DNA of 64,000 bases, taken from NCBI RefSeq assembly GCF_022808865.1, contig NZ_JAKZLB010000003.1:253875-317874 (forward strand), written 5' to 3'. A model generated the notes under the pieces. It ran no database searches. It was not told the DNA's origin and was given only the letters and a program-made list of their open reading frames with translations. This DNA is from Geothrix oryzisoli (lineage in GTDB: Bacteria; Acidobacteriota; Holophagae; Holophagales; Holophagaceae). Numbering within the stretch: position 1 is the first letter of the stretch; each line of letters begins with the position of its first letter. The position numbers were made by a program, and so were the translations under genes. Of this stretch, positions 33,567 through 35,797 are shown in pieces.

Positions 33567-33648
33567 TTCGCAGGCCCCTGTCGAAAAGGGCCCTCCCCAA
33601 TCGACCAGGGGGTGAAGGCGGTCCGAACGACCCCCCATAGGAGCCACC

Positions 33649-34056
33649 ATGAAATACATCTGCTTCGGGTACCTCGACGTCCAGCAATGGTCGACCCTCT
33701 CCCAGAGCGAGCAGAACGCCAGGTTCGACGCGTGCTTCACCTACGATGAGGGCCTCAAGAAGGACGGCCACTGGGTGGGCGGGGAGGGGCTGCAGGGCCC
33801 GGATACCGCCGTCATGGTGCGCCTCGAGCAGGGCAAGGTGTCCGTGACGGACGGCCCCTATGCCGAGACCAAGGAGCTGCTGGGCGGCCTCCTGATCCTG
33901 GAGGCCAGGGATCTCAACCACGCCATCCACCTGATCTCGAACCACCCGGGCCTGAAGATGGGGCCTTGGGAGATCCGGCCGGCAGCGGACCTGGACAAGA
34001 TGATTCGCGAAAGCGAGGCACGACGTGCCAAGGCCAAGGGGAAACCTGCTTCCTGA
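33649..34056 (+). CDS. DGPF-domain (YCII-related) protein partnered with the ECF42 sigma factor
   Basis: A 135-residue ferredoxin-like-fold protein of the YCII/DGPF family. The eponymous motif appears as VTDGPYAETKELLGG near residue 66, and the N-terminus MKYICFGYLDVQQW is also typical. Such proteins sit beside ECF42 sigma factors and are thought to take part in their regulation or output, but no activity is established. It has a good SD (AGGAG, six bases before the ATG). The downstream DNA changes abruptly in composition. Confidence 0.9.
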   Translation: MKYICFGYLDVQQWSTLSQSEQNARFDACFTYDEGLKKDGHWVGGEGLQGPDTAVMVRLEQGKVSVTDGPYAETKELLGGLLILEARDLNHAIHLISNHPGLKMGPWEIRPAADLDKMIRESEARRAKAKGKPAS

Positions 34057-34066
34057 GCAGGGCGCA

Positions 34067-34186
34067 TCAGGCCCGCCAAATCTCCACTTCGGATTCCAAC
34101 TCCCTGCCTTGGTTTGCATGCACTTTCTTCTGCACGCGGATCATGAGTTCAACGAGTTTTTCCTTGCCGTAATCCCGAGCTTGCAT
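34067..34186 (-). pseudogene. murB: orphan murB 3'-end fragment
   Basis: About 40 codons on the minus strand reading KLVELMIRVQKKVHANQG then RELESEVEIWRA and a stop. The intact MurB in this window ends with FAELMEQVRTRVRERHG then VELEPEVEIWREHP. The two tails are clearly homologous, and at DNA level the last 36 or so bases differ at only about four positions. Homology is lost upstream of about 34186. The fragment is much lower in GC than the local murB, so it looks imported from another organism rather than a local duplication. Confidence 0.8.
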
Positions 34187-34213
34187 GGCATCTAAACATA
34201 CGAGAGGAAAATC

Positions 34214-34846
34214 ATGAGCAAGGTATTTGTGAACATCGCGCTTAGCCTCGATGGCTACATGGCGCCGGAAGGAATGACCATGGAGAACCCCGCGTATAAG
34301 AACTGGGGTGCCAAGTGGGGTGCGCTGATGGCTTGGCTCATCAATCAACAGTACTTTCGCGAGAACCTCCTCAAGCTCGAATCAGGAGGAGAAACCGGAC
34401 CGGTCAATGACCTGGTTCGCAGGACCACCGAGCGCATCGGTGCCAACATCATGGGCAAGCGGATGTTCGACCAAGGCGAGCGCGCCTGGCCAGAAGAGGC
34501 TCCGTTTCACACACCGGTATACGTTCTTACCAATGAGAAACGCGAGCCCTGGATGCGCCCCGGTGGCACGACCTTTTTCTTCGTCAATGAAGGGCCAGAG
34601 CGCGCCCTAGAACTGGCTCGGGAATCCGCAGGCAGTCGTGATATTCGTGTCGCGGGTGGACCGGATGTGATCCAGCAGTATCTGAACCTAGGTGTCGTTG
34701 ATGAGCTGGAAATCGCCTTGGCACCCGTGTTTTTCGGCGGCGGGCGGCGTCTCTTCGAGAACCTAAGCGAGCCTGGGCCGCAGTTTCGCATAGACAAGGT
34801 TCTTGATGGTCCAGCCGCCACACACCTGCGCTATGTCCGTCAGTGA
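34214..34846 (+). CDS. dihydrofolate reductase-like (RibD C-terminal domain) protein
   Basis: A 210-residue member of the RibD-C/DHFR superfamily. Motifs: MSKVFVNIALSLDGYMA at the start, ANIMGKRMFDQGERAWPEEA, the cofactor loop RVAGGPDVIQQYLNLG and LAPVFFGGGRRLFENL. These NADPH-binding proteins (YyaP/YwjB-like) are often not true folate enzymes, so activity is unknown. GC content and codon use are visibly lower than in its neighbours, which argues for recent transfer. It is flanked by a murB tail fragment on one side and the intact murB tail on the other. SD GAGAGGA precedes the ATG. Confidence 0.88.
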   Translation: MSKVFVNIALSLDGYMAPEGMTMENPAYKNWGAKWGALMAWLINQQYFRENLLKLESGGETGPVNDLVRRTTERIGANIMGKRMFDQGERAWPEEAPFHTPVYVLTNEKREPWMRPGGTTFFFVNEGPERALELARESAGSRDIRVAGGPDVIQQYLNLGVVDELEIALAPVFFGGGRRLFENLSEPGPQFRIDKVLDGPAATHLRYVRQ

Positions 34847-34851
34847 GGGCG

Positions 34852-34902
34852 GCCTAACCCCGCTTAACTGGCCATCAGATCTCGAGGCGCTGGCCGTTGG
34901 AA
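34852..34902. other. possible degenerate integron attC-like site
   Basis: Right after the DHFR-like stop come GCCTAAC (34852-34858) and GCTTAAC (34862-34868), both fitting the attC RYYYAAC core. An imperfect stem AAC-T-GGCC (34866-34873) pairs with GGCCGTT (34892-34898) with one bulged base. The end GTTGGAA (34896-34902) matches GTTRRRY except for the last base. It stops one base short of the murB stop codon. Only about 50 bases long and imperfect, so this is a suggestion, not an identification. Confidence 0.3.
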
Positions 34903-34903
34903 A

Positions 34904-35797
34904 TCAAGGGTGCTCCCGCCAGATCTCCACTTCGGGTTCCAGCTCCACGCCATGCCTTTCCCGCACCCTCGTTCGCACCTGTTCCATCAGTTCCGCGAAC
35001 TCGGCGGCGGTGGCATGGCCGTGGTTGATGAGGAAGTTGGCGTGCTCGGAGCTCACCTCCGCATCGCCCACGCGCAGGCCCTTGAGGCCCGCCTGGTCGA
35101 TGAGGCGGCCGGCGCTCCCGCCCGGAGGGTTCTTGAAGATGCAGCCGGCATTGCGCTTCGACAGGGGCTGACTGGTGCCGCGCTTGGCCCGGTACTCCGC
35201 TACCTGGGCGCGGATGGCGGTGGGATCGCCCTCCGCCAGCTGGGCCGTGGCCGACAGGACCACACGGCCCCCGGTGAGGAAGCTCCAGCGGTACTTGAAC
35301 TCGCCGGGGTCGGGGGCCTTCTCCACCAGGTCGCCATCGGGGGTGAGGAAGCGGTAGCGCGCCAGCACATTCACCCACTCGCGGCCGTAGGCCCCGGCGT
35401 TCATGCGGATGGCACCGCCCAGCGAGCCCGGAATCCCGCTGGCGAACTCCAGGCCCGACAATCCCGCGGCGGCGGCGGCCTCGGCCAGGGCGATGTGGCC
35501 GTGGCTGGCGGGCGCCGTGAGCTGCGTGCCGTCGCGCTGGACGGTCTTCGGCAGGGCGAGGCGCAGGACCGGGGTCTCGACATTCCCCAGCACCACCAGG
35601 TTCGAGCCGCCGCCCAGCACCCGCCAGGGCAGGCCCTCCCGGGCGCAGGCGCGCACGAAGGCCTGGGCCTCGGCTTCCGTGGTGGGCTCGAAGAGCCAGC
35701 GGCAGACGCCTCCGACGCCCAGCGTGGTCAGGCGTGCGAAGGGCACGCCCTGGCGGTGGGGGACCTTCAGCAGATCATCGGGCAGGGGGCGCGTCAT
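34904..35797 (-). CDS. murB: UDP-N-acetylenolpyruvoylglucosamine reductase
   Basis: FAD enzyme of peptidoglycan precursor synthesis, making UDP-MurNAc with NADPH. 297 residues. Seen: LTTLGVGGVCRWL, LGGGSNLVV, FASGIPGSLGGAIRMNAGAYG (FAD-binding), YRWSFL (catalytic Tyr region), KRNAGCIFKNP with the Ser/Cys acid site, and ELEPEVEIW at the end. It reads in the same direction as ftsQ-ftsA-ftsZ but is separated from ftsQ by 2.7 kb of oppositely oriented genes. The upstream neighbour on this strand is a TetR gene, not murC. Confidence 0.96.
   Translation of the reverse strand: MTRPLPDDLLKVPHRQGVPFARLTTLGVGGVCRWLFEPTTEAEAQAFVRACAREGLPWRVLGGGSNLVVLGNVETPVLRLALPKTVQRDGTQLTAPASHGHIALAEAAAAAGLSGLEFASGIPGSLGGAIRMNAGAYGREWVNVLARYRFLTPDGDLVEKAPDPGEFKYRWSFLTGGRVVLSATAQLAEGDPTAIRAQVAEYRAKRGTSQPLSKRNAGCIFKNPPGGSAGRLIDQAGLKGLRVGDAEVSSEHANFLINHGHATAAEFAELMEQVRTRVRERHGVELEPEVEIWREHP

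Follow-up and report, generated by a model that had tools for sequence, protein, structure and literature searches.

A stray murB 3' end and a damaged integron cassette lie between a YCII-domain gene and the intact murB of Geothrix oryzisoli, within the window studied here (the whole stretch of 64,000 nucleotides from contig NZ_JAKZLB010000003.1), and the same arrangement is found nearly identical in at least five Geothrix species. On balance, we favour an account in which the murB end and the cassette arrived together, entered through short homology at the end of murB, and then spread between species by homologous recombination.

The orphan murB 3' end occupies positions 34067–34186. Its minus-strand reading (34186–34067) gives MQARDYGKEKLVELMIRVQKKVHANQGRELESEVEIWRA followed by a stop codon, 39 codons in all. 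A profile of MurB tails from Geothrix and other Holophagaceae, built with the carriers left out, matched the stretch at profile positions 26–54 (E = 1.3e-9); among 1000 shuffled versions of these residues, none scored better than E = 0.32. Pfam MurB_C was matched at profile positions 71–98 of 99 (E = 0.0078), with a score below the gathering score, as is expected for so short a piece. It is confirmed that the stretch ends in a genuine MurB C-terminus. The sequence-only reading had described forty MurB codons: the C-terminal match holds and reaches well beyond the short EVEIWR stretch, but it covers no more than the final 29 residues (~34070–34156). The ten codons upstream, MQARDYGKEK, resemble the MurB ATARD motif but contain extra residues, and this similarity is not significant; MurB sequence is absent upstream of the 29 residues, and the orphan is thus not a complete murB gene. 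As had been noted from the letters, the tail has a lower GC content than the window (51.7% vs 69.6%). In the G. fuzhouensis copy, a one-base deletion breaks the frame.

The intact murB (34904–35797, minus strand) forms the right flank of the insert. It scores above the NCBIfam murB cut-off as a UDP-N-acetylmuramate dehydrogenase, its product is 91–93% identical to MurB of the other carriers, and its C-terminus reads FAELMEQVRTRVRERHGVELEPEVEIWREHP followed by the stop. The ends of the two copies lie ~718 bases apart, both on the minus strand, in agreement with the earlier statement of an intact murB some 700 bases away in the same orientation. The claim that the tail mirrors the C-terminus of this gene, supported at the protein level by both profiles, also holds for the DNA: the murB end is present on either side of the cargo as an imperfect direct repeat, with 28 of 31 bases equal between 34073–34103 and 34916–34946 (both minus strand). 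The longest exact run, as read from the sequence, is 13 bp, and BLASTN aligned the two murB ends with 85% identity over 40 bp. Across Geothrix, murB varies most in its last ~88 bp (34904–34992), the EPEVEIW codons excepted, and the C-terminal extension after IWR is species-specific. A foreign origin of these 88 bp in the intact gene was considered and rejected. Identity between carriers and non-carriers drops to 68% here, but it is 67% among the non-carriers themselves, so the drop marks a variable stretch and is not evidence of replacement.

The 39 orphan residues were searched against 297 Acidobacteriota genomes, and all non-self matches were MurB C-termini from the same family, in Geothrix (which we take to belong to the Holophagaceae) and four other genera. 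The best matches make a donor in this family most likely, as far as the earlier question of a donor lineage can be taken, since 29 residues are too short to name a donor genus; the tail is about equally similar to the low-GC genus g16 (ELMIQVQSKVQ vs ELMIRVQKKVH) and to Geothrix. The EVEIWR motif was discarded as a family signature, as MurB of another family ends in EVEIWRDEA. At the DNA level, the mean identity of the tail to Geothrix is 53%, and 74% over the last 30 bp. The tail keeps the conserved codons ELM..V...V....G.ELE.EVEIWR, and its variable positions are as divergent as those in other genera. Because the conserved positions are intact and the variable ones are not, the tail most likely diverged inside another working murB, rather than being a decayed copy of the local gene.

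The cargo gene (34214–34846, plus strand) encodes a predicted RibD_C/dihydrofolate-reductase-like protein of 210 residues. It matches Pfam RibD_C (E = 3.8e-15; 56.6 bits vs a cut-off of 24.1) and resembles over its full length (residues 1–209, E = 2.7e-110) the bifunctional deaminase-reductase domain protein of PDB 3kgy. This putative reductase is only distantly related to RibD models, falling below the NCBIfam cut-offs. Foreign homologues with 82–92% amino-acid identity are found in Proteobacteria, Acidobacteria, Chloroflexi, Gemmatimonadetes and Planctomycetes.

This gene belongs to an integron gene-cassette lineage, an origin that is not visible by eye and had been missed in the sequence-only reading. 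When 72 foreign copies were aligned on the start codon, cGTTAGGCCGACATCCGAACATGCGAGAGGAGAATC was common to them and nothing was shared upstream of it; conservation sets in sharply with GTTAGGC, 35 bp upstream of the start codon, and cGTTAGGCCGACATCCGAACATGCGAGAGGAGAATC consists of an R' core followed by a cassette leader. In nine foreign loci (L052, L064, L075, L078, L080, L099, L113, L119, L122), an attC site lies on the gene strand directly 3' of the gene. One of them, L078 from a Terriglobia metagenome-assembled genome (MAG), carries the cassette gene within an array that comprises nine attC sites, and the attC of L075, a typical one, folds into a hairpin with z = –5.3. These sites were called with a strict scan and controls, in place of a loose scan that gave about one match per kb in the window (false positives); the strict scan returned none in 164 kb of control sequence. 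An integron-integrase-like reading frame lies near the gene in two foreign loci. Locus L110, from a Planctomycetota MAG, has four attC sites together with an integrase-like reading frame. In many of the 76 foreign loci the attC is not recognizable, so the gene stands outside an integron in most of these genomes too. A search of plasmids gave partial matches only (60–80% identity, mostly in actinobacteria), and the cassette was absent from them.

The window copy of the cassette is damaged at both ends. By blastn, similarity to the foreign cassettes runs from ~34187–34189 to 34858. A remnant of the cassette leader (34187–34213, plus strand; consensus CGACATCCGAACATGCGAGAGGAGAATC, from the leader profile of the 72 foreign copies) has lost the GTTAGGC core, and the start of an attC (34847–34858, plus strand) ends in GCCTAAC (R''), with the rest lost. 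Neither an R' core nor a complete attC is present in the window copy, which retains only GCCTAAC at its 3' end, and a putative hairpin at 34847–34905 folds no better than shuffled sequences (z ~ 0). With both recombination ends missing, the copy should be no substrate for an integrase, and is probably immobile. The 45-bp spacer between the cassette remnant and the murB stop (34859–34903) gave no significant match in the fetched loci beyond the five carriers, nor elsewhere in its own genome. The sequence GCCTAACCCCGCTTAAC (34853–34868) resembles the native Geothrix attC start GCCTAACCCCTAGCTCAAC with a two-base gap, and could be a hybrid attC remnant or a chance likeness.

Integrons are present in the host genus itself. 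All five carriers (5/5) encode an intact integron integrase, which in the genome of the window lies at G000:C4:518770–519714 (L166:13768–14784, L168; 466 bits), and an integron integrase above the cut-off was found in 29 of the 47 Geothrix genomes. The arrays adjacent to these integrases contain uniform attC sites of ~124 bp wherever the contig continues; in three carrier genomes the contigs break off close to the integrase, an effect that repeats would have. Chromosomal integrons were also seen at further Geothrix loci (L169, L170, L172–L174), and no paper describing them was found in the literature searched. The attC type to which the window cassette is related differs from this one, so the arrays of Geothrix itself were probably not its source.

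The insert interrupts a division and cell-wall cluster with the order ftsA-like gene, ftsQ-like gene (both names presumed, by recognition), sigma-factor gene, YCII gene, insert and murB. The YCII-domain gene (33649–34056, plus strand; Pfam YCII, E = 1.1e-16) is the left flank. In the spacer between the sigma-factor gene and YCII, at window position 33572, G. terrae and G. paludis have ~150–300 extra bases that the window lacks. Besides G. oryzisoli, the named species with the insert at this locus are G. terrae, G. campi, G. fuzhouensis and G. paludis. The DHFR-like gene was found at 99–100% identity in only five of the Geothrix genomes searched, and the whole orphan tail in only five of 47, the identical set. 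Weaker DNA matches to the tail in three further genomes (G019, G028, G031) were traced to an ESEVEVWR/ETEVEVWR motif that occurs by chance in a membrane protein, and were set aside. Seven Geothrix genomes show the empty site, in which YCII is convergent with murB and the two stop codons are 30–99 bp apart; no murB fragment was seen at the empty sites of these seven YCII-bearing relatives, so the insert consists of the tail, the cassette gene and the 45 bp. The earlier description of a transferred gene beside the tail is supported.

Across the five carrier species, the insert is 98–100% identical, against a divergence of roughly 10% in the flanks. Over ~33946–34991 the carriers differ by ~0–3%; in the sigma-factor gene and the greater part of murB the figure is ~5–15%. 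The left edge of the near-identical tract, towards YCII, shifts from one pair to the next, as would be expected of recombination, and the divergence between carriers falls towards the 3' end of YCII; on the murB side, the edge lies near 34991 in all pairs. In a tree of the murB body, the carriers are interleaved with two non-carriers (L011, L013) with supports of 0.82–0.90, which is moderate support from one recombining gene. Because the insert is near-identical while its flanks differ, it most likely spread recently from species to species; homologous recombination through the flanks is the simplest route, with the YCII gene probably serving as the left homology arm. The near-identity of the insert makes descent with loss the less likely reading. 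However, independent recombination events should give differing edges, and the fixed right edge near 34991 does not fit this expectation.

For the origin of the insert, we hypothesize that a divergent murB 3' end, most likely from another member of the Holophagaceae, entered together with a damaged solo integron cassette. The crossover between the incoming molecule and the Geothrix chromosome would have fallen within the conserved final ~30 bp of murB: a circle would have entered by this one crossover, and a linear fragment would have had its second end joined illegitimately. Such an event would add the cassette and leave a short direct repeat, with the foreign tail at YCII and an intact native murB at the cassette. 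Since neither of the ends recognized by an integrase is left on the cassette, later transfer of the locus from one Geothrix species to another would have relied on homologous recombination in the YCII and murB flanks. Tail and cassette gene are always found together, in the same five genomes. Work in Acinetobacter has addressed the transfer of cassettes through natural transformation (PMC3410848).

Besides the fixed right edge, the moderate support of the single-gene tree and the unassigned ten codons of the orphan, two further points weigh against this account. A murB end joined to the cassette was not found among the 76 foreign loci: on the earlier question whether donors carry murB beside a DHFR-like gene, no MurB was present in the fetched flanks (up to 6 kb) of these homologues. 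In addition, the repeat at which the crossover is placed coincides with the most conserved part of murB, and the repeat alone is no proof of a crossover there. The proposal that the tail came with the cargo from another species is retained in part, in that the tail appears to have diverged outside the local murB, whereas its joint arrival with the cassette is what we infer. Likewise, of integration or illegitimate recombination at a gene end, entry through short homology is the part we would keep; a gene-end-targeting island does not fit an insert without an integrase between non-identical repeats.

Insertion of the cassette by a Geothrix integron integrase at an attG-like site beside murB, with the tail as a separate and older feature and the ends decayed later, is possible but rather unlikely. 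According to Loot et al. (2024), as cited in PMC12901181 and PMC12444791, attG insertion by the integrase is an established route; the enzyme is intact in every carrier, and a GTT lies at 34895–34897, near the right junction. However, the product should begin with a TTRRRY remnant and keep a complete attC, and the window copy has neither: no complete cassette joined at a G/TT-type point was found here, both ends being truncated. The ends may have been lost by decay after insertion, but the constant co-occurrence of tail and cassette also speaks against independent origins.

A local duplication of the host murB end, since decayed and drifted to lower GC and unrelated to the cargo, would account for the family signal that the orphan shares with the host MurB. 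We consider it improbable: neutral decay would not respect a pattern in which conserved codons are kept and variable ones differ, the fragment is nearly identical in five species, and no less diverged tandem copy was found in the 47 Geothrix genomes. Quite improbable, too, is an integrative element that targets the murB 3' end and brings a replacement end, comparable to islands at tRNA genes, which would make the orphan the displaced original end. The same-orientation gene-end duplicate flanking the cargo, and the near-identity of the last 88 bp of the intact murB in the carriers, would suit such an element, but this murB stretch is equally variable among the non-carriers, and it is the orphan, not the intact copy, that is foreign to Geothrix in composition. 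The insert, moreover, has one gene between the repeats and no recombinase or other mobility gene, and the 28/31 repeats do not supply the two flanks with an identical att core. That a short motif resembles MurB by chance is hardly credible, for although ESEVEVWR/ETEVEVWR occurs within an unrelated membrane protein of other Geothrix genomes, the orphan matches over 29 residues with conserved columns kept and ends one residue before the stop (E = 1.3e-9).

The preferred account, joint arrival followed by short-homology entry and homologous spread, has parallels in known systems. Like solo integron cassettes outside integrons (SALIN-type with a single attC, or attG-inserted), the cargo is a single promoter-poor cassette-type gene with a canonical leader, at a chromosomal site without an adjacent integrase; unlike them, the window copy lacks both recombination ends and has a gene-fragment duplicate at its flank. 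Homology-facilitated illegitimate recombination, or short-homology integration, in natural transformation likewise joins foreign cargo to a short recipient-like stretch and leaves a partial duplicate, and the scar is what suggests it here. With gene-end-targeting integrative elements such as tRNA-gene islands, the locus shares cargo at a gene 3' end and a direct repeat, but its insert has no integrase, and its repeat is imperfect and has diverged in the manner of an independent murB.

The locus is a well-preserved transfer scar of a kind already known, and its novelty is modest. A broader reading, in which cassettes repeatedly dock at the murB 3' end in Geothrix and arrive there fused to a spare murB end, is very doubtful; if true, the essential murB would stay whole while integron cargo is fixed outside the integron and then shared by ordinary recombination. 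Comparison of the five carriers with related empty sites, together with the gene-fragment scar, makes several of the steps testable. As the locus shows, no integrase-borne island is needed for a short gene-end duplicate at a low-GC gene to be a transfer scar, and it offers a readable case of a cassette that has left its integron, has been stripped of its recombination ends and has turned into an ordinary chromosomal gene spreading between species.
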